Assembly: GCF_020181595.1 (NCBI RefSeq)
Contig: NZ_CP084028.1
Span: 4,024,051 to 4,082,829 of the forward strand
DNA: 58,779 nt
From: [Mycobacterium] vasticus
GTDB taxonomy: Bacteria > Actinomycetota > Actinomycetes > Mycobacteriales > Mycobacteriaceae
Reading direction: 5' to 3'
The notes below the pieces were generated by a model that was not told where the DNA came from, did not search any database, and worked only from the letters and a program-made list of their open reading frames with translations. A program made the position numbers and the translations under genes. Shown here piece by piece: positions 13,795-49,141 of the stretch. Numbering within the stretch: position 1 is the first letter of the stretch; every line of letters starts with the position of its first letter.

Positions 13795-13811
13795 GCATCC
13801 TTCATCCGTTC

Positions 13812-17517: not shown

Positions 17518-18972
17518 TTAGGTGAAGGCTGAGCGGATGCGTTGCCAGGCGGTGGCGATGGCGCTGGCCCAACGCCAGGTGGTGTCGATGCGCAGTCGCA
17601 GTTGGCGGGCTGAGCGGGTGATGCGGGCTGCGACGTGCAGGACTCGGTAGCGGAATGTGGCGATTTCGGCGCGGGCCAGGCCGGGTTGGTCGCCGAAGCC
17701 GATGAGTTTGGCCCAGGTGACCAGGTCAGCGGCGGCCAGCGCGACTTCTAGCCAGGCGGCATTGGCCCAAAAAGAGTGGCACGGCAGGTTGCGTAGCCCG
17801 GTGGCTTTGAGTTCACGGATGCGGTCTTCGACGCGGGCGTGCTGACGGTGCCGCAACTCCAGACCGGCGACTTGGCCGGCGATGGCGCCGGGTTCGGTGT
17901 CGGTGATGAACGCGGTGACGCGCATGCCGTCGGCGTCGGTGAACCGCAACTGCGCTCCCGGGTGGGGTCGTTCTTTGCGCAGGATCAGCCGGGTTCCCGG
18001 TGGCCAGGAGGCAAGGTTGACCAGGTCGGTGGCTTCGGCGACCCAGGCGCCCTCACGGATGCCACCAGCGGTGTCGATCGCCGGGTACCAGCAATCACCA
18101 AGGTTGAGGGTGTCCACGGCGTCTTGCACCCGCGCATCAACGGGGTAGCCGAAGGAAAACCCCACTGCCGCGGCTCGGCAGGCATCAGCGAAGCCGTGGG
18201 TGGCTCCGGCGGTGTCACTGCGGATCAGGACCCGGGGTGTGCTCGCCTCGCTGGGATGGGCAGGGTCAGGTCGCCACCGCGCGGGCAGCGCTGCCAAGGC
18301 CCGGTCCAGCAAGATGATGTGGTCAGAGGCGGTGTTGGAGCCGGCGTTGCCGTTGCGCAGCATCCCGGCCAGGGCTTCCCCGCCGGAGATCTCGGGGCGG
18401 TCCAAAAACGCCAGCAGCGGGTGATAGCCGAACGTCTTCTTCCAGGTGCAGGCGGCGCCGACCTTGTTGTCGGAGTGGTCCAGGGTCAGCGTGGCATCGA
18501 CGTCGATGTGCAGCCAGCCCTCGCTGCCAGGCGCGGCGCCGGCCTGCCACACCGCGGCCCGCGCGCTGGCCCTCGCCGCCCAGATCCGCGGCAGATGTGC
18601 GGCATCGATACGTTCATCGACCAGTCGCCACATCGTGGTGGTTGAGGCTTTCAGACCAAAGACATGCTCACGATCGCCGCAGCGTTGTCCGACCCCGTCG
18701 ATGCAGTCCGCCCCATCAGCGACCGCGGCGGCCAGATCAGCGAAGACATCACCGGGAGCGTGGCGCCAAGGACCGCGGTAGGTATCGGCCAACGCGGCGG
18801 TGACCAGCGCCGATAGGCCGGTGTGGTCGGCCAACTCACGCAGCAGGCCCATCCCCGCATGCGACACGACACCCTGGCCGTCCGCGGAAACTTTCACCCT
18901 CGATCGGCCCGCGATAGTGTTCACCTGCGAAGTGCCTTCCCGTAGGAATGGTTGAACCGTAGACAAGTCCAA
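17518..18972 (-). CDS. IS1380 family transposase
   Basis: A DDE-type transposase of about 484 residues that cuts and joins the IS ends. Recognisable parts are HIDVDATLTLDHSDNK with a catalytic Asp, TWKKTFGYHPLLAF, the RSDTAGATHGF segment with a further Asp, and the C-terminal region HARVEDRIRELKATGLRNLP with the Glu. These fit IS1380-family enzymes in order and spacing. A TTG at 18972 preceded by AAGGG is the longest start; the GTG at 18924 (VNTIAGRSR) is a shorter choice. The reading frame is uninterrupted, so the element may still be active. Confidence 0.93.
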   Translation of the reverse strand: MDLSTVQPFLREGTSQVNTIAGRSRVKVSADGQGVVSHAGMGLLRELADHTGLSALVTAALADTYRGPWRHAPGDVFADLAAAVADGADCIDGVGQRCGDREHVFGLKASTTTMWRLVDERIDAAHLPRIWAARASARAAVWQAGAAPGSEGWLHIDVDATLTLDHSDNKVGAACTWKKTFGYHPLLAFLDRPEISGGEALAGMLRNGNAGSNTASDHIILLDRALAALPARWRPDPAHPSEASTPRVLIRSDTAGATHGFADACRAAAVGFSFGYPVDARVQDAVDTLNLGDCWYPAIDTAGGIREGAWVAEATDLVNLASWPPGTRLILRKERPHPGAQLRFTDADGMRVTAFITDTEPGAIAGQVAGLELRHRQHARVEDRIRELKATGLRNLPCHSFWANAAWLEVALAAADLVTWAKLIGFGDQPGLARAEIATFRYRVLHVAARITRSARQLRLRIDTTWRWASAIATAWQRIRSAFT

Positions 18973-20863: not shown

Positions 20864-20927
20864 AATCTGGTGATCGCAGCCGGACGCCGTACGGATGCGC
20901 GAACAGTCGATTCGAGGAGACGCGAGA

Positions 20928-22085
20928 ATGATGGCTACTGTTTCACCCGCTCAGCTGGAGGGCGTTTCTGGAACTCAGGACAAGATCTGGGCGCATTCGG
21001 GGGATTCGCACGTGATGGAGCCCGACGATGTGTGGACCGCGCGTCTGCCCAAGGCCCTGGCTGACCGGGCGCCCCGCACCGAGCGCGGCGAGAAGTACGA
21101 GGTCATCTACGTCGACGGCAAGCAAAAGACGCGACATTTGAACGACTTCGTCGATGCGATGCGCCCGCCGGGAGTCTTGGACCTCGACATCCGTTTGCAG
21201 GACCTGGAACAGGAAGGCGTCCGGTGCCAGCTGGCGTTCCCGTCGGTCGGATTCTGGAGCGTCGATATCGAGGACCCCGAGCTCTCGGTGGCAGTCGCAC
21301 GTGGATGGAACGAATGGTCCCGTGACGATTACATGGGGCGACAGAACCGAATCTTTACGCCGGCGATCTTACCGCTCGCCGACATCGCGGACACCGTGCG
21401 CGAACTGGAGTGGGCTGCGGAGAATGGATTCCAATCGGTGTTCCTGCCCTGCGGCATGCCGGCAGAGAAGGACTGGGGCCTTGATGTGTGGACGCCGTTA
21501 TGGGATGCGGCGGTTGCCAATGGCATGGTGCTCGCGTATCACATCGGCACGGGTACCGACACCGTCGTTTACCGAGGCCCAGGAGGGGCGGTGGTGAACT
21601 ATATGGAGACCACGTATCCGGGCATGCGGGTGGTGTCGCATCTGGTCGCCGGTGGTGCGCTCGATCGCCGCCCGGACCTCAAAGTCCTGGTGGCTGAGGG
21701 GGGCGCCGGCTGGGTGCCAGCGATCGGCGACCGGATGGATGAGGCCTACCGCCAGCACGGCATGTTCGTGCGACCTCGATTGGACCGTCTGCCTAGTGAG
21801 ATCGTGCGCAGCCAGGTCTACACCTCATTTCAGCACGACATCAGCGCCGTTCAGGTCATCGAGGACACGAACTACTACAACGTGATGTGGGGTGACGACT
21901 ACCCGCACCTGGAAGGCACGTACGGGCACACCCAGCAGACACTGCACCAGATCTTCGACACCGTGGATCCGAGAATCAAGGACCGAGTACTGCGGGGCAC
22001 CTTCGAAGAGCTGTTCAAGGTTCCATCCGATGAGGATCTCAGCCAGGTGACGGTTAAGGCTGGAACAGATTCCGATGGCCAATGA
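20928..22085 (+). CDS. Amidohydrolase family protein (amidohydrolase_2 / ACMSD-like)
   Basis: A 385-residue TIM-barrel metal-dependent hydrolase or decarboxylase. DSHVMEPDDVW holds the N-terminal metal-binding region, although the first ligand pattern is D-x-H. YHIGTGTD and HLVAGGALDRRP carry barrel histidines, and WGDDYPHLEGTY carries the C-terminal Asp. Members include ACMSD- and resorcylate-decarboxylase-like enzymes, often acting on C-C bonds. GAGGAGA lies 7 nt before the ATG at 20928. It overlaps the DUF35 gene by ATGA and is the first gene of the operon that also encodes an Ltp2-like aldolase and CoA ligases. Confidence 0.9.
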   Translation: MMATVSPAQLEGVSGTQDKIWAHSGDSHVMEPDDVWTARLPKALADRAPRTERGEKYEVIYVDGKQKTRHLNDFVDAMRPPGVLDLDIRLQDLEQEGVRCQLAFPSVGFWSVDIEDPELSVAVARGWNEWSRDDYMGRQNRIFTPAILPLADIADTVRELEWAAENGFQSVFLPCGMPAEKDWGLDVWTPLWDAAVANGMVLAYHIGTGTDTVVYRGPGGAVVNYMETTYPGMRVVSHLVAGGALDRRPDLKVLVAEGGAGWVPAIGDRMDEAYRQHGMFVRPRLDRLPSEIVRSQVYTSFQHDISAVQVIEDTNYYNVMWGDDYPHLEGTYGHTQQTLHQIFDTVDPRIKDRVLRGTFEELFKVPSDEDLSQVTVKAGTDSDGQ

Positions 22086-28389: not shown

Positions 28390-29244
28390 CTATCTCCCTG
28401 CGGGTCGGTGTGGTCCAGCACTCGGGGGCTTCGTGCCGAGAATCGCGGCATCGAGCTGATCTAGATGGGCGGTCATCTCGCGGACCGCCAACTCGGCATC
28501 ACCACATGCCACCGCTTCGGCAATGCGGGCATGTGCGGCGAAGGTTGGCTCAGCGTCATGCTCCGCGTGCTGTTGGGCCACATAGTTCACCGAAAGGTGT
28601 GTCAACGCCTCGATGAATAGCAGCAGCGCCGGATTGTCGGTGATCTCGGCGATGACGATGTGCACGTTGTTCGACCCGACCTGACGGAGCTGGTCCTTGG
28701 GAGTCTGCTGTTCCGCTGCAACCGCAGTCCGCAGGCGGGCGGCACCGGCAGGTGTGATCCGCCGGGCCGCCAGACGTACGCAGGTCAACTCGACTTCGCG
28801 CTTTGCCTCCAGTACGTGCTCGCTGCTCACGTTTCTGCTGGAGAGGAACATCTCAAGCGCGTGGGCGGTCGTGGTCGCCTGCGGCTTGCTGATCACCAGT
28901 CCGCCACTGCGGCCCATACGCATGGTCGCAATACCCTGCTGCTCGAGCATCCGAGTGGCTTCGCGTAACACATTGCGCCCGACACCGAACCGTTGCAGCA
29001 ACTCAGCTTCCGATCCGAGGTTTGTGCCCTCGAGCCAGTTCGCCGCACGGATCTCTTCGGTGAGTTCATCGACCACTGACTGTGCCAACCGCTCACCACT
29101 GGCTTTGCGCCCCCCGCGCGACGAGATCATCCGGCTATCGTGGGCGACCCCGCGGTGGATTGCAACGTCGTTGTTGGTGGCTGATGGCAGGGAGCGACGA
29201 GACGCCGAAAGTGGCGTTTTCGGCGAGTCGCTCGACCTTGACAT
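28390..29244 (-). CDS. FCD-domain GntR-family transcriptional regulator
   Basis: A winged-HTH plus FCD regulator. The wHTH covers about residues 50-120 (LAQSVVDELTEEI, then RFGVGRNVLREATRMLEQQGI and the wing RMGRSGGLVI). The all-helical FCD ligand domain follows, with His-containing segments NNVHIVIAEITDNPAL and AHARIAEAVACGDAELA as metal-ligand candidates. The first ~38 residues are low-complexity; ATG 29130 (MISSRGGRK) is a possible shorter start. It lies divergent from the long operon starting at 29325 and next to the palindrome at 29267, which suggests it controls both directions. Confidence 0.87.
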   Translation of the reverse strand: MSRSSDSPKTPLSASRRSLPSATNNDVAIHRGVAHDSRMISSRGGRKASGERLAQSVVDELTEEIRAANWLEGTNLGSEAELLQRFGVGRNVLREATRMLEQQGIATMRMGRSGGLVISKPQATTTAHALEMFLSSRNVSSEHVLEAKREVELTCVRLAARRITPAGAARLRTAVAAEQQTPKDQLRQVGSNNVHIVIAEITDNPALLLFIEALTHLSVNYVAQQHAEHDAEPTFAAHARIAEAVACGDAELAVREMTAHLDQLDAAILGTKPPSAGPHRPAGR

Positions 29245-29324: not shown

Positions 29325-30461
29325 ATGAGTCAGACCAAGTACAAGCTGTTCAGTGTCGATGACCACATCATCGAACCGCCGAACGTATGGACTGACCGAG
29401 TGCCCGCCAAGTACGGCGACCAGATCCCGCACGTCGTCGAAGAGGGCGGCCGTCAGTTCTGGGTGTGGGAAGGGGAGAGGATCCCGCAGATGGGGCTCAA
29501 CGCGGTTGCGGGCAAGCCCCAGGAGGAGTGGAACACCGAGCCTGTCCGCTACACCGACATGATCCCGGGCTGCTACGACCCCGTGCAGCGCGCCAAAGAC
29601 ATGCGCAGCGACGGAATTTTAGCCACGCTGTGCTTTCCGACCCTGACTGGCTTCGGTGGGCGTGTACTGAACAACATCGCCGATAAGGAGTTCGCGTCAC
29701 TGCTGGTGCGGGCCTACAACGATTTCATCCTTGACGAGTGGTGTGCGGCAGCGCCCGAAATGTACGTGCCGATGATCGCCGGACAACTCTGGGATCCGGC
29801 GGCCATGGCTGACGAGATCCGCCGCTGCGCCGAGCGCGGTGCCCGTGCCCTTACATTCCCGGAGGGCACCGTCTCGTTGGGTCTCCCGTCGCTGTTCAGC
29901 GATTACTGGGACCCGATCTGGCGGGCATGCGAGGAGACCGAGGTCGTGGTGTGCATGCACATCGGATCCAGTGGCTCGTTGACCAACCCGGCGCCCGACG
30001 GGCATTTCATCATCCCGATCGCCCTGGGCAACCTCAACGCCCAGGCCGCGATGATCACCTTCGCCATGTCGCCGGTGCCACGCAAGTTCCCCAACATCAA
30101 ACTGGCCATCTCCGAGGGCGGTATCGGATGGATCGCGAGCGCGTTAGAGCGCGCCGATCGCCAATTCAAGAAGCACCGGCTGCATCAACACATGGACGAC
30201 CTACTGCCAAGCGAGGTCTGGCACCGCAACATCTGGGGCTGCATGATCGACGAACCGATCGGCCTGAAGTCCCGCTACGACATCGGCGTAGACAAGATTT
30301 TGTGGGAGTGCGATTACCCGCACTGCGACAGTACCTGGCCGGACAGTCAGAAACTCGTAGAGGAATTCCTCGGCGAACTCCCCGCCGAGGAGATCTCCGC
30401 AATCACTCATGGCAACGCAGAGAAGCTGTTTCGCTGGAAGCTCGGCGTCGGTGCGGTCTGA
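29325..30461 (+). CDS. Amidohydrolase family protein (amidohydrolase_2), first paralogue
   Basis: A 378-residue metal-dependent hydrolase/decarboxylase-like TIM barrel. SVDDHIIEPPNVW gives the N-terminal D-x-H-type region, VCMHIGSSGS the barrel His, SEGGIGW a central segment, and WECDYPHCDSTWP the C-terminal Asp. AGGAGG lies 8 nt before the ATG. It is the first gene of the long operon and is clearly paralogous to the next gene; both keep the pattern DDHxIEPP and DYPHxDSTxP. Substrate unknown. ACMSD-, LigY- or resorcylate-type C-C bond chemistry is possible. Confidence 0.9.
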   Translation: MSQTKYKLFSVDDHIIEPPNVWTDRVPAKYGDQIPHVVEEGGRQFWVWEGERIPQMGLNAVAGKPQEEWNTEPVRYTDMIPGCYDPVQRAKDMRSDGILATLCFPTLTGFGGRVLNNIADKEFASLLVRAYNDFILDEWCAAAPEMYVPMIAGQLWDPAAMADEIRRCAERGARALTFPEGTVSLGLPSLFSDYWDPIWRACEETEVVVCMHIGSSGSLTNPAPDGHFIIPIALGNLNAQAAMITFAMSPVPRKFPNIKLAISEGGIGWIASALERADRQFKKHRLHQHMDDLLPSEVWHRNIWGCMIDEPIGLKSRYDIGVDKILWECDYPHCDSTWPDSQKLVEEFLGELPAEEISAITHGNAEKLFRWKLGVGAV

Positions 30462-30490: not shown

Positions 30491-31696
30491 ATGGATATCC
30501 CGAAAATCATCTCAGTCGATGACCACGTCATCGAGCCACCGACGCTGTGGCAGGAGCGGCTACCGCAGAAATACCGCGAGAACGGACCTCGGGTGGTCCG
30601 TAAAAACGGTCGGATGACCTTCGCCGACGGCGTGCTGAAATTCGAGGAATCTGCGGATGCGCCGGTGGTGGATCTGTGGCACTACGACGACCTGGTTTGG
30701 CCCATTCCCCGGGGTATGGCCCAAGTCGGGCACCTCGATGAACTATCCGCACACTCGGTGAACTACGACGATATCGAGTTGGGCTGCTGGCAACAGAAGG
30801 CCCGGCTGGACGCCCTCGCCGCCAACCACACCGACGGTTCGCTGTCGTTCCCGAGCTTCCCACGGTTCTGCGGCCAGACATTCCTGGAACGCGAAGACAA
30901 GGATCTGGCCCTACTGTGTGTGCGGGCCTACAACGACTGGATGATCGACGAGTGGTGTGCGGGCGACGGTGCCGGCGTGCTGATCCCGTTGACCCTTATT
31001 CCGTTGTGGGACCCGAACTTGGCTGCTGCGGAGGTGCATCGCTGCGCGGACAAGGGCTCCTATGCGGTGGCATTCTCGGAGAACCCGGTTCCGTTGGGAC
31101 TGCCCAGTATTCATGGACCGCACTGGGATCCGTTCCTAGCTGCCTGCGAAGAGACCGGCACCGTGATCAACATGCATATCGGCTCCTCGTCTCAGCTGGC
31201 CGTGACAGCTCCGGATGCGCCATTGGAAGCCGGTATGGCGCTCACCGCGGAGAATTCGGTGCACGCGTTTGTGGACTGGTTGACCTCCGGTGTCTTCGCG
31301 CGCCGACCAGGTTTGAAGATCGCCCTGTCCGAGGGGCAAGTCGGGTGGATGCCGTTCATGATGGAGCGACTCGACTCGGTGTGGGAGCGCAGCCGCTTCT
31401 ATGGCAACCGGCTGCGCGAGGTGCTGCCTGAGCCGCCGAGCAGCTATATTGCGGGGCACCTCTACGGCTGTGTATTCGATGACGTCGAGGGAATGCTGCG
31501 TCGCGATGTGATCGGTATGGGGCAGATAATGTTCGAAACCGACTATCCGCACAGTGATTCGACGTTCCCGCATTCGAAGCAGACGGCAGAGAAACTCGTG
31601 CAACAGGCTGGACTCAACGAGAAAGAGACTTACCAGTTGCTGCGCGGAAACGCGATCGAATGTTTCGGATTGGAGCGGTTGGGGTTCACCAAATGA
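30491..31696 (+). CDS. Amidohydrolase family protein (amidohydrolase_2), second paralogue
   Basis: A 401-residue paralogue of the upstream gene with the same landmarks: SVDDHVIEPPTLW, NMHIGSSSQ, LSEGQVGWMPFMMERLD and FETDYPHSDSTFP. GAGGAGA lies before the ATG. Tandem paralogues suggest two subunits of a hetero-oligomer or two successive or stereospecific reactions. Its stop overlaps the next gene (ATGA), coupling it to the tandem binding protein. Confidence 0.9.
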   Translation: MDIPKIISVDDHVIEPPTLWQERLPQKYRENGPRVVRKNGRMTFADGVLKFEESADAPVVDLWHYDDLVWPIPRGMAQVGHLDELSAHSVNYDDIELGCWQQKARLDALAANHTDGSLSFPSFPRFCGQTFLEREDKDLALLCVRAYNDWMIDEWCAGDGAGVLIPLTLIPLWDPNLAAAEVHRCADKGSYAVAFSENPVPLGLPSIHGPHWDPFLAACEETGTVINMHIGSSSQLAVTAPDAPLEAGMALTAENSVHAFVDWLTSGVFARRPGLKIALSEGQVGWMPFMMERLDSVWERSRFYGNRLREVLPEPPSSYIAGHLYGCVFDDVEGMLRRDVIGMGQIMFETDYPHSDSTFPHSKQTAEKLVQQAGLNEKETYQLLRGNAIECFGLERLGFTK

Positions 31697-34077
31697 CCGA
31701 CGCGCCGCCGGATCGCCGCGACGAGGAACGGCTTACCAAACGGTCTCGTGCTCCGCACAAGATCGGCGTGTGTTTGGAATTCGCGGGTGGTACCCAGCTT
31801 GCCCAGGACTTTCTCGATGGCATCCGACTGGCGCTCGACGAGGCGGTCGGGCGTGGCGAAATTGACCGCGATGTCGAGTTGGTGGTGCGGGAGGTACAGG
31901 GGCCGATGCGCGGCACCAGCGCCCCGGTGATCCGCGCGTGGCGCGAATTGGTGCACGACGAGGATTGCCTCGCGGTGCTGGGGCCGGTAGTCACCGAGGC
32001 CAATCTCGCGCTGTGCGACGAGGTGAACGCCACCGGGGTACCCACGATCTCGTTCTGCGCCACGGCGGACTGGGCAGGCCCGTACTGTTACGCCTTGCAG
32101 AACGGCAACTATCCCGACGAGGCACACGTGCTGGCCGGCTGGCTGGCGCGGGAGGGTTGTGAGTCGGTTGCGGTGTTCCGCGAAACAGGGCTCATCGGCG
32201 AGGAATTCGGCACCGCCTTCAAGGTGGCGGCGCGCCGATGCGGTCTGCGGGTCACCGTCGACCACGAGGTCGGGTTGTTCAACACCTACACCCCGGTCGA
32301 GCCGGCTCTGAAGACTGCGCATCTTGCCGGGACCGACGCGGTGCTGGTGCTGTCTGCTTACGGGGCGCTCGCACCCGTGCAGCGCGAGTTGGCCCGGGTC
32401 ACCGCAGAATGGGATTGGCACCCGAGGCTGGCCCAGAATATGACTTGGGTCGGCCTGACAGCTTTCGGCGCCACCGGTGACTTCGACGCCGATGCACTTG
32501 GGGAGGCCTTCGAGGGCTGGGTAGGCCTGGACCAGATCCACGAAGACAATCAGTACTTCCAGGACGTGTTGGACCGCTTCGAGGCCCGGTACGGGCGGCG
32601 ACCATTCCATGCCTACACCGCACTGGGTTTCGATCACGGCGCCGTCGTCGCCGAGGTACTCGCGGGGCTGCGGCTGCCGTCGCCGGCCGGCTTCAAAGCG
32701 GGGCTGGAACGCATCAGGGTCAAGTCGGCCTGCGTCGGCGCCCCGGGCACAGTGATCAGCTTCGGCCCGCACGATAATCGCGGCTATAAGGGCGAATACA
32801 TCGTGCTGCGCACGGTCCGCGACGGTGTGGAACAACCGCTGGGGCTGAAGTGGGTGGACCTACTGGAAACCGAGCCCGAAACACGTGGCGGCGAGGACAT
32901 CGGCGCCAGCGGTAGCGCCGTCGCCGGCGCCGGATCGGCGTATGCCCTGGCCGGGGATCGTGAGCCGTTCCGCATTGGCGTGCTACAGGACTGGGCGCTG
33001 TGGGCGCCGGTGGAGGACTGGTATGGCGGACTCACGCTGGCTTTCGAGGAGGCCTACGAAACCGGCCTGATCGATCGACCCGTCGAACTGGTGATCCGTG
33101 AGGTCGAGGGACCACCCGAGGGTGACTTCGCGGGGGTGCGCCGGGCCTGGCGGGAGCTTGTCGAGGACGAGATGGTCCTGGCGACCGTCGGGCCGTTCAT
33201 CACCGAGACCACCCGGGCGCTACGGGATGACATCGAGCGCGCAAAGGTGCCGTGCCTGTCCTACTGCGCGACCACCGGGTTTGACGGCGACTACACCTTC
33301 CAGCTGCCCAACGGAACCTTCGCCGACGAAACATTCTTGATTGCAAGGCATCTGGTAGAGCGCGGAGTCCGTCGCGTCGGGGTGGTCCGTGAAGACAACC
33401 CGATCGGCGACGAGTACTACGCCTACTTCCGGCAGCACGCGCAGCGTCTGGGCCTGGACATCGCCAGCGACCAACTGGTGTCGCCACGTGTCGACGATGC
33501 AGGTATGGCGTTGGCGTTGGCTAACATTCGCGCCTCGGGTGCTGACGGGCTGGCGCACCTGGGTTACGGGCTGACGTTCTACGCCATCCTGCACAGTTGC
33601 CACGACATCATCGCCGACTGGGATGTGCCGCGCTGCACCATCACGACTTGGGTGACTTGTAGCGGCCTGGATCAGGAACGCGGCAGCCCGGTCATGCTGA
33701 ACCTCCCCGCTCCAACGGATCTTCTGGAGGGCTGGGTCGGCGTCGACCTACCCCATGAGGGCAATCGGGTCTGGTCGGGCTTTCTGAACCGGTATACCAA
33801 GCGATTCGGCGGATCACCGCCGGTGTGCTGCTACCCGGCTCACCTCTACGACATGGGCCGCGCCCTTGCCGAAGGGATCGCCCTTGCGCGCCCGGTCAGC
33901 CCCGAAGGGCTGCGCCACGGCCTGGAGCAGGTGCGCATGCTGCCCGCCGCGATGGGTGCACCAGGCACCGTTATCGGCTTCGGTCCCTATGACCATCGGG
34001 GCTACAAGGGGTCAGATTATCTCGTGTTACGCACCGTCCGCAACGGACGTGAGGGACTTGTGGAGGACCTGCTGTGA
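31693..34077 (+). CDS. Tandem (duplicated) type-1 periplasmic-binding-protein fusion without export signal
   Basis: A 794-residue protein made of two related branched-chain-amino-acid/amide-type binding-protein domains, about residues 24-390 and 427-794. A Gly/Ala/Ser-rich linker joins them (about 395-425). The halves share RDVELVVREVQGP/RPVELVIREVEGP, RAWRELV, ISFCATADW/LSYCATTGF, and GAPGTVI-FGP-D-RGYKG. Normal family members have one domain and a signal peptide or lipobox. Here the N-terminus is hydrophilic with no hydrophobic segment, and no ABC permease or ATPase gene is near. The start overlaps the amidohydrolase stop (ATGA). It resembles cytoplasmic AmiC-like ligand sensors more than a transporter part. 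Function not established. Confidence 0.88.
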   Translation: MTDAPPDRRDEERLTKRSRAPHKIGVCLEFAGGTQLAQDFLDGIRLALDEAVGRGEIDRDVELVVREVQGPMRGTSAPVIRAWRELVHDEDCLAVLGPVVTEANLALCDEVNATGVPTISFCATADWAGPYCYALQNGNYPDEAHVLAGWLAREGCESVAVFRETGLIGEEFGTAFKVAARRCGLRVTVDHEVGLFNTYTPVEPALKTAHLAGTDAVLVLSAYGALAPVQRELARVTAEWDWHPRLAQNMTWVGLTAFGATGDFDADALGEAFEGWVGLDQIHEDNQYFQDVLDRFEARYGRRPFHAYTALGFDHGAVVAEVLAGLRLPSPAGFKAGLERIRVKSACVGAPGTVISFGPHDNRGYKGEYIVLRTVRDGVEQPLGLKWVDLLETEPETRGGEDIGASGSAVAGAGSAYALAGDREPFRIGVLQDWALWAPVEDWYGGLTLAFEEAYETGLIDRPVELVIREVEGPPEGDFAGVRRAWRELVEDEMVLATVGPFITETTRALRDDIERAKVPCLSYCATTGFDGDYTFQLPNGTFADETFLIARHLVERGVRRVGVVREDNPIGDEYYAYFRQHAQRLGLDIASDQLVSPRVDDAGMALALANIRASGADGLAHLGYGLTFYAILHSCHDIIADWDVPRCTITTWVTCSGLDQERGSPVMLNLPAPTDLLEGWVGVDLPHEGNRVWSGFLNRYTKRFGGSPPVCCYPAHLYDMGRALAEGIALARPVSPEGLRHGLEQVRMLPAAMGAPGTVIGFGPYDHRGYKGSDYLVLRTVRNGREGLVEDLL

Positions 34078-35519
34078 CGTTCGATCGGCGCGACGTCGAC
34101 GGCTTCTTCATCGACGGTGCGTTGCGCCCTCCGAGTTCCACTGAGCGTGTCGAGGTCGTCCATCCGGCCAATGAGGAGATTGTGGGCTCGGTGCCGCGGT
34201 CGACCGCCGCGGATATGGCCGCAGCGATCAACGCGGCCCGACGGGCCTTCGACGAGGGGCCTTGGCCGCGCACCCCACCTGCCGAGCGCGCGGAAATCCT
34301 GACCGCAATCGCCGACGGACTGGACAAGCGCATCGATGAGTTGGCCTGGCTCAGTACGGCGCAGAACGGGATGCCGATCACCCTGTCTCGTCAGAGTCAG
34401 GGAATCGAGCTGTTGCGGTTCTACGCCGACCACGTCGACGAGGTGGCGTGGGAGCAGCGTCGGCAGGGTCTGGCCGGTACCGGCTTGGTGCGGCGCACAC
34501 CGGTGGGCGTCGCCGGTCTGATCGTGCCGTGGAACGCGCCGTCGCTGTTGATGAACAAGTTGCCCGCCGCGCTGATGGCTGGCTGCACCACGGTGGTCAA
34601 GCCTTCGCCGGAGACACCGCTGGACACCTACGTACTGGCCGAGGTGCTGCAGGATGTCGGCCTCCCGCCGGGCGTGGTGAACATCGTCGCCGGCGACGCC
34701 GAGGTGGGGCAGTATCTGGTGGACGCCCCGGCCGTCGACAAGATCAGCTTCACCGGCAGCACGCAGGCCGGCCGCACGATCATGGCCAGAATGGCCGGCC
34801 GAATCGGCAGGCTCAGTTTGGAACTCGGCGGCAAATCGGCCTCCATCCTGCTTGATGACGCACCCCTGGACGTCGCCCTGCCGGCCACCATGGCCGGGTC
34901 GTGCCTGAACAACGGGCAGGCGTGCATTGCGCTGTCGCGGGTACTCGTACCCCGTTCGCGCTATCCCGAGGTCGTCGACGCGTTGGCTGCCATGGTCGCC
35001 GCCTTGCCGGTGGGCGACCCATTCGAGGAGTCGACGTTCGTCGGTCCGGTGATCAACGCCAAGCAGCGCGATCGTGTGTTGAGCTACGTCGAGATCGGAA
35101 GATCCGAAGGCGCACGTGTCGTCGCGGGTGGCGGGACCGTGCCGGGACGCGACAAAGGCTTCTGGGTGCAGCCCACCGTCCTTGCCGACGTGCACAACGA
35201 GATGAGGGTCGCTCAGGAGGAGATCTTCGCCGCGGTGATCTCGGTGATCCCCTATGACGGCGGCGACGATGCCGCCGTGGCAATGGCCAACGACAGTAGC
35301 TACGGACTTTCCGGCGCGGTGTGGAGTGCCGATCCCCACCGGGCACTTGAGGTCGCACGCAGAATCCGCACCGGAACCATTACGGTCAACGGCTTCACCT
35401 ACGACATCGGGTTGCCGTTCGGAGGCTTCAAACAGTCCGGCATTGGGCGGGAATGGGGCCTTGAGGGTCTTGAAGGCTACGTGGAATACCAGACCATCAA
35501 TCTTCCGGCAGGACTTTGA
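34074..35519 (+). CDS. NAD(P)-dependent aldehyde dehydrogenase
   Basis: A 481-residue ALDH oxidising an aldehyde to the acid. IVPWNAPSLLMNKLPAAL and FTGSTQAGRTI belong to the cofactor domain; LELGGKS holds the general-base Glu and NNGQACIALSR the catalytic Cys. The C-terminal GLPFGGFKQSGIGREWG segment completes the family pattern. GTG at 34074 overlaps the previous stop as GTGA. With the alcohol dehydrogenase and P450 downstream it would take a hydroxylated intermediate to an acid for CoA activation. Confidence 0.94.
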   Translation: MTFDRRDVDGFFIDGALRPPSSTERVEVVHPANEEIVGSVPRSTAADMAAAINAARRAFDEGPWPRTPPAERAEILTAIADGLDKRIDELAWLSTAQNGMPITLSRQSQGIELLRFYADHVDEVAWEQRRQGLAGTGLVRRTPVGVAGLIVPWNAPSLLMNKLPAALMAGCTTVVKPSPETPLDTYVLAEVLQDVGLPPGVVNIVAGDAEVGQYLVDAPAVDKISFTGSTQAGRTIMARMAGRIGRLSLELGGKSASILLDDAPLDVALPATMAGSCLNNGQACIALSRVLVPRSRYPEVVDALAAMVAALPVGDPFEESTFVGPVINAKQRDRVLSYVEIGRSEGARVVAGGGTVPGRDKGFWVQPTVLADVHNEMRVAQEEIFAAVISVIPYDGGDDAAVAMANDSSYGLSGAVWSADPHRALEVARRIRTGTITVNGFTYDIGLPFGGFKQSGIGREWGLEGLEGYVEYQTINLPAGL

Positions 35520-35560
35520 ATGTAAGTGATTCCGACGCCAGCGCAGTGAAAGGACACGAT

Positions 35561-36799
35561 GTGACTACCCTACCAACGGATTTCACCGCCCTTGGTGCCC
35601 CGGAAAGCCCGGCGGACCGCGTGCGCGCATTCAGTACGTTTGCGGCATGGGCGCAGACGGATCCGATCGGAGCCTTTGCTGAGGTGCGCGCCCACGCAAA
35701 GATGGCGCGTTCCGAGGAGTTTGGGGGCTTCTGGATCCCCACCCGCTATGCCGAGATTGAGTGGGTGGCCCGAAACCCGGAGATCTTCAGTAGCGCCGAA
35801 CCGTTGATCCCTTACGCCCGCACCCTGCCCGAAAAGGCCATCCCCCTGGAACTCGATGGTGAGGTTCACACGGCCTGGCGCAAAGCCTTAGCAGATGCCT
35901 TCAGTCCGAGTGTCGCCCAACACTTCCTGCCTCAGATCGAGGAGCTGGCCAGGGAGCTGGTCGAAGCCGCAGTGCGGTCGCGCAAGTTCGACTTCGCCTC
36001 GGAGTTCGCCGTGAAGCTACCCGCTAGCGTCTTCCTGGTGAACTTCGGCGTCGATCCGTCGGCATTGGACCAACTCCTGGAGTTCAAGAACTGGTACGTC
36101 CGAGAGGGTCTGACGTCCGATGGCTCCGATGGTGAGGTGGCCAAGGCGTGCAAGCCGCTGTTGGACTTCTTCCAGAGCGAGGTGGACCGACGGCGGTTCG
36201 AAGGATATGAGGGGCACCGAGATGTCATGAGTAAATTGCTCAGCGCGACTTATCAAGGCCGGGCGCTCACCGATGCCGAGGTTGTGAATGCGGCCTTCGT
36301 CACCATGATGGCGAGCCTTGACACGACCACGTCTGCACTTGGATTGATCTGGCTGACGTTGACACAACGTACGGATCTGCGAGCACAAGTGATCAACGAG
36401 CCGGATCAGATCCCGCAGATGATGGAAGAGCTGATCCGATATCAGCCTGTGCTCACCACGGCAAGAGTGGTGACGCAGGAAGTCGAGCGCGACGGTGTGA
36501 CGCTTCATCCAGGTGATCGGGTGCTGATGTCGTGGGGGATGGCGGGCCGCGACCCCGATGTCTACGACCGCGCCGACGAATGCTTGCTGGACCGGCCCCC
36601 GAATCGCACCCTGGCCTTCGGGGTCGGGCCGCACCGCTGTCTCGGGATGCACCTGGCCCGACGGATCATCACCGTCGCGATGCGCGAATGGCACGCCCGC
36701 ATCCCGGATTACCGCCTGGACCCAGACGGTCCGCCTATCAGCTACTACAGCCCGGTAAGGGGAGTGATGTCCCTGCCGCTGTTGATCGGGAAGGACTGA
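35561..36799 (+). CDS. Cytochrome P450
   Basis: A 412-residue soluble P450. The I-helix is MASLDTTTSALG, where the usual Gly of AGxDTT is Ser. The ExxR is EELIR and the haem loop is FGVGPHRCLGMHLAR. It should be a monooxygenase needing ferredoxin and reductase partners, none of which is in this operon. GTG at 35561 follows AAAGGA by 6 nt and is preferred over the upstream TTG that gives a 15-residue extension. It lies between aldehyde and alcohol dehydrogenase genes, consistent with stepwise oxidation of one substrate carbon. Confidence 0.92.
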   Translation: MTTLPTDFTALGAPESPADRVRAFSTFAAWAQTDPIGAFAEVRAHAKMARSEEFGGFWIPTRYAEIEWVARNPEIFSSAEPLIPYARTLPEKAIPLELDGEVHTAWRKALADAFSPSVAQHFLPQIEELARELVEAAVRSRKFDFASEFAVKLPASVFLVNFGVDPSALDQLLEFKNWYVREGLTSDGSDGEVAKACKPLLDFFQSEVDRRRFEGYEGHRDVMSKLLSATYQGRALTDAEVVNAAFVTMMASLDTTTSALGLIWLTLTQRTDLRAQVINEPDQIPQMMEELIRYQPVLTTARVVTQEVERDGVTLHPGDRVLMSWGMAGRDPDVYDRADECLLDRPPNRTLAFGVGPHRCLGMHLARRIITVAMREWHARIPDYRLDPDGPPISYYSPVRGVMSLPLLIGKD

Positions 36800-36806: not shown

Positions 36807-37901
36807 ATGCGGATCACTGCCGCCGTCCTGCGCGCAACCGGAGCGCCAATGACCGTCGAAACCTTGGACCTCGATGACCCCCGACCGACCGAAATCGTCG
36901 TCGAGATCGCCGGATCCGGCATTTGTCACACCGACCTATCCGTCCGTGACGGCGCCTGGCCGTATCCACTACCTGCCGTACTCGGACACGAAGGCGCGGG
37001 CACTGTGATGGCCATCGGATCCGCGGTAGACGCAGTCAGCGTGGGGGATCGAGTCGTATTGTCCTTCGGGTTCTGCGGCAGCTGCCCGGGCTGTCTGTCG
37101 GGTAATCCGGCTAGTTGCCCGGACGCACCCATGATCAACCTGCGTGGCACCCGAGCCGACGGATCGGTGACGCTGTCGCACGACGGTGCTCCCGTCCACG
37201 GCCTGTTCAATTCGCAGTCCTCGTTCGCGACCCACCTGCTCACCGAGCAACGGTTCGCAACCAGACTCCCCGACGGGATCCCGCTGGAACTCGCCGGCAC
37301 GCTGGGCTGCGGCATCCCCACCGGGGCAGGGGCGGTTCTCAATGTGCTTGCGTCGCGGCCGGGCTCGACGGTGGCGATCATTGGACTGGGCGCGGTCGGG
37401 CTTGCCGCGGTCGCCGCAGCAAGATTCAGTGGGTGCTCTCGCATTATCGGCGTCGATCTGAACCCCGGCCGGTTCGAGCTCGCGCGAGCATTCGGCGCCA
37501 CCGATGTGATCGACGCCGGCCGTGACGACACGGTCGCTACGATTCACCAGCTGGTTGCAGGTGGTGTCGACGGTGCGATCGAGGCCAGCGGCGCGAAACC
37601 AGCTCTGAACAATGCGTTCCTGTCGACCAAGCCGACGGGGACAACCGTGCTGGTGGGTGCCGCTCCGATCGGTACCCACTACGAAATCGACTCGGTGGCG
37701 CTGCTCTCCGGCCGGACGCTGCGCGGATGCACGATGGGATCGGCCAATCCGCGGGTATTAATTCCGCAGCTCGCTCGGATGTGGCAACAGGGCCTGCTGC
37801 CGATCGAAAAGATGAGCACAACATTCAAGCTCAGTGCGATCGAGCAAGCGTTGGCAGCGGCGGCCGACGGGTCGGTGGTCAAACCCGTGCTGATCCCGTG
37901 A
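36807..37901 (+). CDS. Zinc-dependent alcohol dehydrogenase (MDR superfamily)
   Basis: A 364-residue class-III/benzyl-alcohol-dehydrogenase-like MDR enzyme. SGICHTDLSVRDG gives the catalytic Cys, LGHEGAGTV the His/Glu, and FGFCGSCPGCLSGNPASC the structural-zinc cysteines. GLGAVGLAAVAAA is the NAD-binding Rossmann motif. It would oxidise a primary alcohol to the aldehyde used by the ALDH upstream. It starts 7 nt after the P450 stop, indicating co-transcription. Confidence 0.93.
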   Translation: MRITAAVLRATGAPMTVETLDLDDPRPTEIVVEIAGSGICHTDLSVRDGAWPYPLPAVLGHEGAGTVMAIGSAVDAVSVGDRVVLSFGFCGSCPGCLSGNPASCPDAPMINLRGTRADGSVTLSHDGAPVHGLFNSQSSFATHLLTEQRFATRLPDGIPLELAGTLGCGIPTGAGAVLNVLASRPGSTVAIIGLGAVGLAAVAAARFSGCSRIIGVDLNPGRFELARAFGATDVIDAGRDDTVATIHQLVAGGVDGAIEASGAKPALNNAFLSTKPTGTTVLVGAAPIGTHYEIDSVALLSGRTLRGCTMGSANPRVLIPQLARMWQQGLLPIEKMSTTFKLSAIEQALAAAADGSVVKPVLIP

Positions 37902-38372: not shown

Positions 38373-39254
38373 ATGCCGGAACTGAGATTCGATGACCGCG
38401 TGGCGATCGTCACGGGTGCCGGACGTGGTATTGGGCGCGCCCATGCTCTGCTTCTTGCAGAGCGGGGCGCGGCGGTGGTCGTCAATGACGTCGGTGCGGC
38501 AACCAGTGGTACGGGATCATCCTCCGCTCCAGCCGATGACGTAGTCGCAGAGATCACCAAAGCCGGCGGCACAGCGGTTGCCAGTTACGACTCCGTCGCT
38601 GCCGCGGACGGTGGGCGGGCGATCACTTCGACGGCCATCGAAGCGTTTGGACGTGTCGACGTCGTGATCAACAATGCTGGAAACGCGATACCCAAGCCAT
38701 TTCTCGAACTATCCGATGACGATCTGTATTCGCTTGCCGACGTCCACTGGCTCGGAAGTGTGCGGTTGTGCCGCGCGGTCTGGCCTTACCTCGTTCAACA
38801 GAAGTATGGTCGCGTCATCAATACCGTGTCGGCATCGATGCTGGGAGTTCCACAGTGGACCGGTTACGGCGCGGTGAAGGGCGCACTGCTGGGTTTTACC
38901 AAGAATCTTGCGGCTGAAGGTGGCCCACATGGGATCGGTGTCAACGCGATCGCACCGGGTGCAGCGACCCGGATGCTCGCCGATACAGCGGGCTCGACAC
39001 CGCCAGGTGCGCTGGAAAGTATGACAGCGATGATGCCACCTCACCTGGTCGCACCTGCCGCGGCTTTCCTCGCCCACGAGTCGTGCATGCTCAACGGAGA
39101 GGTACTCGCCGTAGCGGCAGGCCATGTCGCCCGAATTGTTCTCGCGCAGACCGTCGGAATCACCGATTCGGATCTAACGCCCGAGCACATCGTTGACGGG
39201 TTGGCGACGATCCTGGACACCACCCAACTCACGCCGTGGACGATCGAGGTGTGA
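38373..39254 (+). CDS. SDR family oxidoreductase (HSD17B4-like)
   Basis: A 293-residue short-chain dehydrogenase with the cofactor motif TGAGRGIGRA, NNAGN, catalytic Ser in NTVSASMLG and YxxxK in GYGAVKG. The insert between the first Rossmann strand and NNAG (DVGAATSGTGSSSAPAD) and the extra C-terminal ~60 residues resemble 3-hydroxyacyl-CoA-dehydrogenase-type SDRs linked to lipid oxidation. GGGAG lies just before the ATG at 38373. Last gene of the operon begun at 29325. Confidence 0.9.
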   Translation: MPELRFDDRVAIVTGAGRGIGRAHALLLAERGAAVVVNDVGAATSGTGSSSAPADDVVAEITKAGGTAVASYDSVAAADGGRAITSTAIEAFGRVDVVINNAGNAIPKPFLELSDDDLYSLADVHWLGSVRLCRAVWPYLVQQKYGRVINTVSASMLGVPQWTGYGAVKGALLGFTKNLAAEGGPHGIGVNAIAPGAATRMLADTAGSTPPGALESMTAMMPPHLVAPAAAFLAHESCMLNGEVLAVAAGHVARIVLAQTVGITDSDLTPEHIVDGLATILDTTQLTPWTIEV

Positions 39255-46047: not shown

Positions 46048-46815
46048 ATGGTCGCGCTTGAATCCGCTACCAAGCCGGTACGCGCGGTGGGTGACTTCTT
46101 CGCAATGGCTGTCGAAGTCTTGGCCTTGATATTCAAGCCGCCCTTTGCGTGGCGGGAGTTCCTCCTGCAGGCGTGGTTCATTGCGCGTGTTTCCATCGTG
46201 CCGACCATCATGCTCTCCATTCCGTTTACCGTGCTCGCGGTGTTCGTACTGAACATTCTGCTGGTGGAATTCGGAGCGGCTGACTTTTCTGGAACCGGTG
46301 CTGCATTAGGTGCGGTGACTCAGATCGGGCCGCTGGTGACGGTCCTGGTGGTTGCGGGGGCCGCCGCAACGGCGATGTGCGCGGACCTGGGAGCACGGAC
46401 AATCCGTGAGGAGATCGACGCCATGCGAGTGCTGGGCATCAACCCCCTCCAGAGGCTGGTCGTTCCGAGAGTGCTTGCCGCAATGTTTGTGGCGTTGCTG
46501 TTGAACTCTGTGGTGGCTATCGTCGGCGTAGTCGGTGGCTTTCTTTTCTCGGTGTTCGTTCAGCACGTAACTCCCGGCGCATTCGTGGCCGGGATGACGC
46601 TGCTCACGGGCCTGCCCGAGGTCGTCATCTCGCTGGTAAAGGCTGGGCTCTTCGGGTTAGCCGCGGGTTTGATCGCGTGCTACAAGGGACTCTCCGTTTC
46701 CGGTGGTCCGGCTGGAGTCGGAACAGCGGTGAATGAAACTGTGGTGTTCACATTCATGGCCTTATTCCTCATCAATGTGATCGCCACGGCCGTCGGTGTG
46801 AAGGCGACAATGTGA
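46048..46815 (+). CDS. yrbEA: MlaE/YrbE-type permease, Mce locus YrbE-A
   Basis: A 255-residue integral membrane permease of the Mce lipid importer. It has about five hydrophobic segments and the family landmarks PFTVLAVFVLNILL, TQIGPLVTVLVVAGAAATAMCADLGARTIREEIDAMRVLGI (the EExDA/VLG cytoplasmic loop), RLVVPRVLAAMFVALLL and GGPAGVGTAVNETVV. The length equals mycobacterial YrbE A proteins. GGAAGGG lies 5 nt before the ATG at 46048. It overlaps the YrbE-B gene by 4 nt and is the first gene of the operon. Confidence 0.94.
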   Translation: MVALESATKPVRAVGDFFAMAVEVLALIFKPPFAWREFLLQAWFIARVSIVPTIMLSIPFTVLAVFVLNILLVEFGAADFSGTGAALGAVTQIGPLVTVLVVAGAAATAMCADLGARTIREEIDAMRVLGINPLQRLVVPRVLAAMFVALLLNSVVAIVGVVGGFLFSVFVQHVTPGAFVAGMTLLTGLPEVVISLVKAGLFGLAAGLIACYKGLSVSGGPAGVGTAVNETVVFTFMALFLINVIATAVGVKATM

Positions 46816-47669
46816 GCGTCGATGTCATCCTTGAGCAGGAATATCCCCGCTTAGCCCGGACTGCGCAGCAGTGGGCAGCTGAGTGGAATCGGGTTGGTGA
46901 GCAAACTGCTTTCTATTTCCGCATCATCCGCGACGTAGGTCATGCGCTGCGGGCCTACCCCAAGGAGATGTTGCGACTCGTCGCCCAGATGAGCATGGGT
47001 ACCGGGGCGCTTGCCCTCATCGGCGGGACAGTCGTCATCGTCGGATTCTTGACGTTGTCCGCCGGGGCGCTGATCGCGGTACAGGGCTACAACATGCTGG
47101 CCGGCGTCGGTGTTGAGGCGCTGACAGGCTTTACGTCGGCCTACCTGAACGTGCGTATCATCGGTCCGCTGGTCACGGGGATCGGTATGTCCGCGACTCT
47201 TGGGGCCGGGGCGACCGCGCAGCTCGGTGCGATGCGTATTGCCGAAGAGATCGATGCGCTGGAAGTGATGGGCGTTCGTGCAGTGTCATATCTCGCGTCC
47301 ACCCGTCTAATCGCGGGAGTCGTGGTAGTCATCCCGCTGTACTGCATCGCGGTCGTGATGTCGTTTGTAGCCGCCCGTTTCGGTACAACCGCGGTCTACG
47401 GGCAGTCGACAGGTGTATACGATCACTACTTCTCCACATTCCTCAATCCGGTCGATCTGCTGTGGTCTTTTCTGCAAGCGATCACTATGGCGGTGACGGT
47501 GATGGTGATTCACACCTACTACGGTTTCAATGCAGCTGGTGGTCCGGCCGGTGTGGGCGAGGCGGTAGGACGAGCCGTACGCGCTTCCTTGGTGACTGTC
47601 GTGTTTGTGACGCTGGTTATCTCACTGGCGGTGTATGGACAGTCCGGCAACTTCAACCTGTCGGGATAG
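46812..47669 (+). CDS. yrbEB: MlaE/YrbE-type permease, Mce locus YrbE-B
   Basis: A 285-residue partner permease with the same core: GIGMSATLGAGATAQLGAMRIAEEIDALEVMGV, RLIAGVVVVIPLYC and FNAAGGPAGVGEAVGRAVR. The N-terminal ~60 residues form a soluble amphipathic extension. YrbE-A and YrbE-B form the membrane channel powered by an MceG-type ATPase, which is normally encoded elsewhere and is not in this window. GTG at 46812 overlaps the YrbE-A stop (GTGA). Confidence 0.94.
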   Translation: MSVDVILEQEYPRLARTAQQWAAEWNRVGEQTAFYFRIIRDVGHALRAYPKEMLRLVAQMSMGTGALALIGGTVVIVGFLTLSAGALIAVQGYNMLAGVGVEALTGFTSAYLNVRIIGPLVTGIGMSATLGAGATAQLGAMRIAEEIDALEVMGVRAVSYLASTRLIAGVVVVIPLYCIAVVMSFVAARFGTTAVYGQSTGVYDHYFSTFLNPVDLLWSFLQAITMAVTVMVIHTYYGFNAAGGPAGVGEAVGRAVRASLVTVVFVTLVISLAVYGQSGNFNLSG

Positions 47670-47676
47670 AAGAACA

Positions 47677-49125
47677 ATGCCAATTGGTCGCGAAAAACGT
47701 ATCAGCCCAGGCTGGTGGACAGCGATACTCATCGCGTTCCTGATCGGTGTGATCGTCAGTACGGCCGCGCTTTTCTCCGGCACATTCATTCCGCATGTCG
47801 GTATCGTGGTTGCCTCGGATCGGTCCGGACTTGTGATGGAGCCGGGGAGCAAGGTAAAGCTACGTGGACTTCAGGTGGGCCGGGTCGCCCGGATCACTGG
47901 TGGGCGCGACTATGTGACCTTGAACCTCGAGATCGATCCCGACAAGGTGGAGTTCATCCCGGCCAATGTCGAGGCCAGGATTCGTGCGACAACCGTATTC
48001 GGCGCCAAGTACGTCGATCTCGTACTTCCTGCTGTCCCCAGTTCGCAGCACCTCAAAGCTGGTACCGTCATTCAATCGTTGAACGTGACCGGCGAGGTGA
48101 ACACGGTCTTTGAAAACCTAGTCGGCGTGCTCGACAAGATTGATCCGAATAAACTCAACGCCATCTTGGCGGCGTTCGCAGAAGGGTTCCGCGGGCAGGG
48201 GCCGCGGATGGGCGAGGCTATTACCGCTGTTAACCAGGTGCTCCTCGAAGTCAATCCGCGCGCGGACACCGTGCGCGCCGACTGGCAGGCGTTTAAGGGA
48301 TTCAACGACACATATAGCGCGGCTGCGCAGAACATTCTCACCGTACTTGATTCGGCCAGCACTGTGAGCACGGCGATCACGGACAACCAGCAGGCACTGG
48401 ATACGCTCCTGCTGAGCATCACCGGATTCTCCACCAGCGGGCTTAACCTTCTAGCGCCAGCCAAAGACGCGATTGTCGAGGTCCTCACTACCCTTGAACC
48501 GACCACTGAACTGTTGCTGGAGTACAACCCGGTCATCACTTGTACGCTCGGATCCTCGGCATGGAACGTCCGAGAGGGTCTGAACCGGTGGGGTTTGGGT
48601 GGAAATGGCCGGACTGGCATTCTTGACTCTGGCCTGGCGTGGGGCAATGACATGTATACCTACCCCGACCAGCTCCCGATTGTGGGGGCCAAGGGCGGTC
48701 CGGATGGCAAGCCGGGTTGCGGTTCCATGCCTGATCCCACCAAACAGTATCCGATCCGTCAGCTGATCACGAATACCGGTTTTGGCACTGGTAATGACTA
48801 CCGTGTCAACCCCGGTATTGGCTTCCCCGGTTGGGTCAACTACTTCCCGGTCACTAGGGGCATACCTGAATCGCCGAGCATGCGCTACAAGGATGGCCGC
48901 GTGGCACCGCCACCGGAACCGCCGTATCCCGGAGCCCCGCCCTACGGAGCGCCGCTGTACGCGCCGGACGGGACACCACTGTTTCCCGGCGTGCCGCCGG
49001 CACCACCCCCTGGAAGATCGCGTGATTTGAGCCGGACGCCGGGATCTGAACCGTTCGTACCCGCACACCCCGCCAAGGTTCACCCCTGCACGCCCCCGTG
49101 CCACTTTGAGCCACCCGCACCATGA
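47677..49125 (+). CDS. mceA: MCE family protein, MceA position
   Basis: A 482-residue cell-envelope protein. One N-terminal membrane anchor (about 14-36, TAILIAFLIGVIVSTAALFSG) is followed by the MCE/MlaD domain (about 45-115), a long helical region with periodic coiled-coil character (to about 300) and a Pro-rich tail. In the assembled importer six Mce proteins form a hexamer with a lipid channel. No lipobox is present. The ATG at 47677 lies 7 nt after the YrbE-B stop. The mce-cluster number cannot be assigned from sequence alone. Confidence 0.93.
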   Translation: MPIGREKRISPGWWTAILIAFLIGVIVSTAALFSGTFIPHVGIVVASDRSGLVMEPGSKVKLRGLQVGRVARITGGRDYVTLNLEIDPDKVEFIPANVEARIRATTVFGAKYVDLVLPAVPSSQHLKAGTVIQSLNVTGEVNTVFENLVGVLDKIDPNKLNAILAAFAEGFRGQGPRMGEAITAVNQVLLEVNPRADTVRADWQAFKGFNDTYSAAAQNILTVLDSASTVSTAITDNQQALDTLLLSITGFSTSGLNLLAPAKDAIVEVLTTLEPTTELLLEYNPVITCTLGSSAWNVREGLNRWGLGGNGRTGILDSGLAWGNDMYTYPDQLPIVGAKGGPDGKPGCGSMPDPTKQYPIRQLITNTGFGTGNDYRVNPGIGFPGWVNYFPVTRGIPESPSMRYKDGRVAPPPEPPYPGAPPYGAPLYAPDGTPLFPGVPPAPPPGRSRDLSRTPGSEPFVPAHPAKVHPCTPPCHFEPPAP

Positions 49126-49141
49126 AAGGTAACCGGCCGCA

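Follow-up and report, generated by a model that had tools for sequence, protein, structure and literature searches.

The tandem binding protein

We analyzed a 58,779-nucleotide stretch of the [Mycobacterium] vasticus genome (contig NZ_CP084028.1, positions 4,024,051 to 4,082,829; hereafter, the window), which carries a gene for a protein made of two type I periplasmic binding protein (PBP) domains in a single chain. The protein is predicted to stay in the cytoplasm, its gene adjoins those of candidate oxygenases and other catabolic enzymes, and we tentatively consider it a ligand-binding accessory of an oxygenase-based pathway. The gene and its parts are as follows.

31693..34077, + strand: tandem type I PBP protein of 794 amino acids, predicted to be cytoplasmic (open reading frame translation, Pfam, homologues, half-versus-half alignment, structure model)
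31747..32862, + strand: N-terminal PBP domain, residues 19-390 (PF13458 match, AlphaFold model, N-half clade)
32863..32955, + strand: Gly/Ala-rich linker, residues 391-421 (low predicted local distance difference test score, pLDDT; poor conservation)
32956..34074, + strand: C-terminal PBP domain, residues 422-794 (PF13458 match, model)

The tandem protein passed the curated Pfam cut-off for the type I periplasmic binding protein family PF13458 (Peripla_BP_6; 157.4 bits against a cut-off of 31.7), which matched in two stretches, and its two halves aligned with each other at 40% identity over 368 columns (E 1e-70), in agreement with an earlier note on this DNA that had described two homologous PBP1 domains joined by a Gly/Ala linker. 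The only other Pfam families seen in the chain were two sub-threshold PBP-like ones, with no fused permease or membrane domain, and an NCBIfam search gave no match. A chance or miscalled open reading frame was ruled out by 28 tandem homologues with 40-87% identity and 95-100% query coverage.

The AlphaFold model, built on 29 tandem sequences, had a mean pLDDT of 90.1 and a predicted template modeling score (pTM) of 0.90. Its weak parts were the first residues and the linker (about residues 391-421), where pLDDT fell to 56-57 at residues 401-420, a value undercut only by the first residues. For two domains separated by a linker of 30 residues, a pTM of 0.90 suggests that the halves are held in a fixed position as a pseudo-dimer. 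Mean identity to the query among 27 proteins was 69% in the N-half, 70% in the C-half, and 41% in the linker, and 155 columns (85 in the N-half and 70 in the C-half) were invariant among 28 tandem proteins, charged and aromatic positions included. Since both halves are equally conserved and neither has decayed, both probably still bind something, and they may differ enough to bind different things.

Export signal and import partners

The tandem protein and its single-domain relatives (hereafter, the tandem PBP family) were examined for export signals by a simple hydropathy and lipobox rule, which caught the exported controls livJ and livK and missed ugpB (one of three). By this rule, a signal-like N-terminus was found in none of the 29 tandem proteins, in none of 62 of the 68 single-domain proteins from family loci, and in one of 48 single-domain proteins from the database; six Frankia single-domain proteins outside the test begin with MKVGVLQDF. 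An in-frame ATG at 31660 would add 11 residues that by eye do not resemble a signal peptide. These results agree with the earlier note's statement that a signal peptide and lipobox are lacking, and the many exported homologues that would have spoken against it did not turn up by this rule. Export of the tandem protein appears unlikely.

No PF02653 permease was found in the whole 4.55-Mb genome of M. vasticus by a search that gave matches in 12 of 14 control genomes, and the PF13458 matches of this genome were limited to the tandem gene and two single-domain relatives, all four domains belonging to the tandem PBP family. Across the genus, PF02653 matched in 54 of 98 genomes. Since 31 of the 58 genomes that bear the tandem PBP family had no PF02653 match, the family does not follow this permease in the genus; the relation between the two leaned the opposite way (two-sided Fisher p 0.06). 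The tandem protein is thus hardly an importer part in its own genome, judging from the genome sequence, and to that extent we retain the earlier description of it as cytoplasmic and outside import.

Screens of neighboring genes for permeases were weaker than the whole-genome PF02653 search. BLAST with E. coli LivH and LivM missed the permeases of three positive-control loci and found only ATPases, and a repeat search with actinobacterial permease and ATPase queries still missed a Pfam-confirmed permease at a locus edge (L101_17). The 68 family loci have 1139 called proteins, counting the family members, and few of these matched E. coli Liv and Ugp proteins; outside the family, Liv matches comprised an ATPase (L106_13) and a permease (L101_17), both in Frankia and each at a locus edge, and a 30-residue match in L031_01. 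The permease, from Frankia locus L101, is a true PF02653 gene (18024-18500, + strand) seven genes from a single-domain relative, and the same locus encodes an ordinary lipobox-bearing substrate-binding protein (SBP; 12646-13872, - strand) three genes from the cytoplasmic relative. The single-domain loci of Frankia therefore have import genes nearby, though these come with their own SBP, with which the permease presumably pairs. A lack of permeases beside homologues, which the earlier note had put forward for testing, agrees with the 31 genus genomes, but not with this Frankia locus. An SBP-type permease of an ATP-binding cassette (ABC) importer was absent, as the earlier note had stated, from the 47 called window genes that our family scans covered, but an Mce operon located 12 kb downstream of the tandem gene includes two permease genes of MlaE/YrbE type, at 46048-47669.

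Family distribution and origin

A database search returned 33 proteins including the query, of which 29 tandem proteins were aligned; three shorter proteins (P0029, P0031, and P0033) and a run-on protein (P0030) were omitted. In P0030 the tandem PBP continues into an alcohol dehydrogenase. A real fusion was rejected, the joint being garbled by eye as is typical of a frameshift run-on, and the protein shows gene order only. Among the named sources of the aligned homologues are Mycobacterium, Mycobacteriales, Frankia, Steroidobacteraceae, Gammaproteobacteria, and Hyphomonadaceae; the Frankia tandem protein (P0013) shows 67-68% identity.

In a tree of the separate halves, the N-halves formed one clade (support 1.0) and the C-halves another (0.999), the two being sisters (0.96), with the single-domain proteins outside. 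This topology indicates that one old duplication and fusion preceded the divergence of the tandem genes, and it rules out recurrent fusion of different paralogues, in both cases for 28 of the 29 proteins; the divergent P0032, whose N-half falls elsewhere, was left out of this statement. A further divergent tandem relative beside P0032 is P0036 (575 aa), whose shortened N-half suggests that one binding site has been lost.

The tandem gene is rare: it was found in 1 of 98 genomes of the genus, 1 of 201 of the family, 1 of 396 of the phylum, and 1 of 396 in a second genus sample, always in M. vasticus itself (the samples overlap), and in 1 of 35 genomes sampled around Frankia. The proteobacterial tandem genes are known as proteins only; gene context was seen at two tandem loci, the window and Frankia L005. 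Relatives at E 0.001 or better were present in 58 of the 98 genus genomes, all single-domain except the tandem gene of M. vasticus, and some of these matches are partial or contain a stop. With a single-domain query at E 1e-25, only 7 of 346 phylum genomes gave matches. Plasmid searches with the tandem protein and with one single-domain protein gave no match. In M. vasticus, two further internally duplicated proteins are encoded beside the closest single-domain paralogue (L021 4500-9156; C1:814499-819155 for the two): a double CoA-transferase III of 826 aa and a double acyl-CoA dehydrogenase of 713 aa.

The surrounding gene cluster

The start of the tandem gene overlaps the stop of the preceding PF04909 gene in an ATGA at 31693-31696, confirming the coupling that the earlier note had reported. 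Similar junctions follow, GTGA at 34074-34077 and TTGA at 35516-35519, provided that the GTG and TTG starts are used. On the strength of these three junctions, the genes from 30491 to 36799 may form a single unit of coupled translation. The genes around the tandem gene are listed below.

28390..29244, - strand: divergent FCD-type GntR regulator that carries a ligand domain of its own (Pfam)
29325..30461, + strand: PF04909 protein, candidate amidohydrolase-related dinuclear oxygenase (DitZ 8uyr nearest; six ligands D12, H14, H212, E264, D330, and H333)
30491..31696, + strand: second PF04909 protein, likewise a candidate dinuclear oxygenase (structure matches, all six ligands present by the ligand check, ATGA overlap with the tandem gene)
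34074..35519, + strand: aldehyde dehydrogenase (PF00171; Pfam), GTGA overlap with the tandem gene
35516..36799, + strand: cytochrome P450, start TTG 35516 or GTG 35546 (nearest solved structures P450cin and other camphor-type P450s)
36807..37901, + strand: zinc alcohol dehydrogenase (Pfam); a related gene follows the tandem PBP in the run-on protein P0030
37922..38341, + strand: limonene-epoxide-hydrolase-like protein (PF07858; family match)
38373..39254, + strand: short-chain dehydrogenase (family match)
46048-55385, + strand: two YrbE-type permeases and six MCE proteins, an Mce operon (family matches)

The PF04909 neighbors as candidate oxygenases

Among solved structures, both PF04909 proteins were closest to DitZ (8uyr; E 1.4e-75 and 4.3e-47), a name given by the structure depositors, followed by PtmU3 (E 4.5e-34 and 8.9e-33). 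PtmU3 is a diiron hydroxylase of diterpenoid biosynthesis (PMC7782822), and AibH1H2 is a heterotetramer of two proteins of amidohydrolase fold with a dinuclear site in AibH2 only (PMC7782822, PMC10401708), the ligands of this site being Asp25, His27, His211, Glu265, Asp337, and His340 (PMC7782822). At the aligned positions both window proteins have D, H, H, E, D, and H, and the same six letters were seen by eye in the DitZ and PtmU3 alignments. The complete set was present in 23 of 29 aligned PF04909 proteins, the two window ones included; two others differ, and four more lack only the first two ligands, by a gap at the called start. We consider the two neighbors candidate dinuclear oxygenases. 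They share with AibH1H2, SfbO, and PtmU3 the PF04909 fold and all six metal ligands; unlike AibH1H2, where only AibH2 has the dinuclear site, both have the ligand letters. Neither a Rieske nor a ferredoxin family was matched among the 47 called window genes, whereas AibH2-like proteins show 90% co-occurrence with an adjacent small Rieske protein (PMC10401708). A third PF04909 gene of the window (20895-22085, + strand) has by eye the D-x-H, H, E, and D-x-x-H letters of dinuclear oxygenases.

AibH1H2 had a Michaelis constant (KM) above 100 mM in vitro for the substrate that its authors take as native, and they leave open that protein contacts matter in vivo (PMC10401708); SfbO had a KM of 83 mM, measured with a surrogate that is not the native substrate in its authors' view. 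The AibH1H2 value leaves room for an accessory protein, with which it fits without proving it. A PBP partner is not mentioned in the examined portions of the AibH1H2, SfbO, and PtmU3 papers (PMC10811679, PMC7782822, PMC10401708).

A PF04909 pair lies directly upstream of the tandem gene at both tandem loci seen, the window and Frankia L005. The second gene of the Frankia pair is short at the start: in the Frankia assembly used, the reading frame for this homologue of the second window protein (8826-9911, + strand) begins at a point that corresponds to about residue 46 of the latter.

Neighbors across the family

To compare neighborhoods, 70 family genes from 68 loci were grouped into 11 clusters at 60% identity, and a neighbor family was scored for a cluster when at least half of its genes had it within 6 genes; the background was the middle of 40 spaced loci from four genus genomes, imperfect for the clusters from Frankia or other families. 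Labels were assigned by BLAST to a few reference proteins, partly from the same loci, and distant members were missed on both sides. Oxygenase-type PF04909 genes were found in 7 of 11 clusters and in none of the 40 background loci (p 2.9e-6; p-values are one-sided and uncorrected for 14 families). Aldehyde dehydrogenases (6 of 11 clusters against 1 of 40), P450s (7 against 4), and short-chain dehydrogenases (8 against 4) were enriched as well, and no enrichment was seen for alcohol dehydrogenase (2 against 2), acyl-CoA dehydrogenase (4 against 6), AMP ligase (3 against 6), or Mce genes (0 against 3).

A constant association of homologues with the amidohydrolase pair, which the earlier note had proposed to test, did not hold beyond the two tandem loci, with any PF04909 gene within 8 genes of just 24 of the 70 family genes. 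Among 22 such single-domain genes, 21 have one PF04909 gene and one (L046) has two, at some distance. In the largest subfamily, of 35 genes (L022, L024-L035, and others), the operon contains genes for a VWA/CoxE-like protein, a MoxR/CbbQ ATPase, the single-domain cytoplasmic PBP, an AveC-like membrane protein, a short-chain dehydrogenase, a P450, and an aldehyde dehydrogenase; VWA and MoxR lie within 6 genes in 33 of the 35 members.

Putative ligands

In LivJ, Ser79 and Thr102 hold the ligand carboxylate. In the family alignment both positions are Thr in both halves of the tandem protein (T101/T124 and T504/T527); the Tyr202 position is Tyr (Y223 and Y625), and the Tyr150 position is Ile. By profile and fold, the solved relatives include aromatic-acid binders and amino-acid binders alike, the best-ranked one being a leucine complex, and an amino-acid ligand is possible. 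Loss of the LivJ Glu226 equivalent (the ammonium site) was considered and not used as proof: the MAFFT column is Leu/Arg in a poorly aligned stretch, and most proteins have acidic residues within the wider segment (18/29, 26/29, and 89/110). A ChsH2-type OB-fold gene (PF01796) of the window overlaps a thiolase-like gene (PF22691; 22292-23724, + strand), a pairing known from steroid side-chain cleavage. Together, the Thr positions, the camphor-type P450, the limonene-epoxide-hydrolase-like gene, and the ChsH2/thiolase pair suggest a terpenoid- or steroid-like pathway, one of whose carboxylates or hydrophobic acids would be the ligand.

Proposed role and alternatives

We favor, with real doubt, the reading that the tandem protein is a soluble cytoplasmic ligand-binding accessory, either carrier or effector, of an oxygenase-based catabolic pathway, probably one for a terpenoid- or steroid-like compound. 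The tandem fold, the lack of a recognised export signal and of a permease match in the genome, the single duplication, and the enriched neighbors were read from the sequence, and from them we infer the ligand class, the contact with oxygenases, and the role. A tandem PBP would have left ABC import and become an accessory of the pathway; each lobe would bind a compound of the pathway, for which a hydrophobic acid or a carboxylate other than an amino acid is likeliest, and the protein would concentrate this compound and present it to the adjacent dinuclear oxygenases and/or the P450. The carrier or allosteric-subunit role that the earlier note had raised is plausible. In a bolder form, which we find improbable, the protein would represent a new class of soluble substrate-binding component, in which a venus-flytrap module taken over from nutrient import works in the cytoplasm and hands substrate to amidohydrolase-fold dinuclear oxygenases and P450s that may bind substrates weakly alone, the tandem form being a fixed pseudo-heterodimer matched to the oxygenase-subunit pair. 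Two PF04909 genes do precede each tandem gene, compared with one for 21 of the 22 PF04909-linked single-domain genes; the two tandem loci form one cluster and count as one independent case.

Several observations weigh against an oxygenase accessory. No PF04909 gene lies within 8 genes of 46 of the 70 family genes, and the five plasmid PF04909 loci read (156 records matched) all show no tandem PBP-family protein among their listed genes, so that the family cannot be a universal oxygenase subunit. The largest subfamily pairs with VWA, MoxR, AveC-like, and P450 genes instead, TetR (6) and GntR (4) regulators are frequent among 112 neighbors, and the 47 window genes gave no match to a Rieske or ferredoxin family. 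The lipobox SBP and the L101-edge PF02653 permease at the Frankia loci place the family not always far from import genes.

The main rival, which we regard as unlikely, is an intracellular sensor of the AmiC/NasS type, with the tandem PBP binding an inducer and controlling a regulator or RNA-binding partner of the cluster. A PBP fold without an export signal is what such sensors have; the ANTAR partner that adjoins them was absent both from the 47 window genes called and from the 25 most frequent of the 77 families in the 112 neighbors. Regulators differ between subfamilies, the enzymes recur, and FCD-GntR and TetR regulators bring ligand domains of their own. We prefer a carrier or effector to a sensor on three counts: it is enzymes that recur as partners, the regulators change from one subfamily to another, and the 47 called window genes gave no ANTAR match. 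The amide-sensing parallel with AmiC drawn in the earlier note is weak for this last reason and for another, namely that the "amidohydrolases" look like dinuclear monooxygenases. It is quite improbable that the PBP fold has turned into a pathway enzyme or a folding or metallation helper of the oxygenases. The charged and aromatic residues among the 155 invariant columns would suit such a role, as would the largest subfamily, where the gene follows a MoxR ATPase and precedes AveC-like, short-chain dehydrogenase, P450, and aldehyde dehydrogenase genes, MoxR/VWA pairs being known as metalloenzyme activators; however, the invariant columns may serve fold or ligand, no catalytic motif was recognised, NCBIfam gave no match, and neither a MoxR nor a VWA label was seen at the two tandem loci. 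Very improbable is an ordinary importer SBP whose export relies on an unrecognised route or a different start and whose permease lies elsewhere. The source labels ("ABC transporter substrate-binding protein"), the YrbE permeases 12 kb downstream, and the Frankia PF02653 gene seven genes from a relative point that way, but the genome of M. vasticus gave no PF02653 match, none of the 29 tandem proteins has a signal-like N-terminus, the Frankia locus presumably pairs its permease with its own lipobox SBP, and in Mce systems the binding role falls to the MCE proteins themselves.

Comparison with known systems

AmiC of Pseudomonas aeruginosa is a single-domain protein. Like AmiC and NasS, the tandem protein is a relative of importer SBPs that appears to be kept in the cytoplasm and is encoded with a catabolic or assimilatory operon. 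In contrast to these single-domain proteins, which are paired with the ANTAR proteins AmiR and NasT, it is tandem, with no ANTAR gene found in the window and with oxygenase-type neighbors. NasS has no signal sequence (PMC3795266). AmiC was rejected as the nearest fold, ranking 41st among the 50 matches listed, many of them tied. Compared with the Liv-type Peripla_BP_6 SBPs, such as LivJ, the leucine binder 4q6b, and the Rhodopseudomonas palustris aromatic-acid binders 4f8j and 4ey3, the tandem protein has two domains per chain, no export signal or lipobox by the hydropathy rule, no PF02653 permease found in its genome, and Ile at the LivJ Tyr150 position. Two substrate-binding domains in tandem in one chain also occur in GlnPQ-type systems (PMC8025302). 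The GlnPQ-type domains, however, lie outside the cytoplasm and are attached to a transporter's membrane domain, whereas the tandem protein gave no sign of a membrane domain.

No cytoplasmic PBP of the tandem kind was met in the titles and abstract openings of the openly licensed literature searched. The tandem, oxygenase-associated variant is new, within a small class of cytoplasmic PBP-fold proteins that is itself known. Sources that name family proteins call them ABC transporter substrate-binding proteins, which misdirects annotation and metabolic models for a family that occurs widely in the genus (58 of 98 genomes) and whose ties are with oxidative catabolism more than with transport. If the family serves oxygenases, this could explain the weak substrate binding of AibH1H2 in vitro and would give a handle on the substrates of orphan oxygenases, since the binding protein can be screened directly for ligand.

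Other features of the window

The Mce operon may serve to take up the substrate on which the products of the catabolic genes act. A DDE transposase gene (PF13701; 17518-18897, - strand) lies inside the catabolic region.

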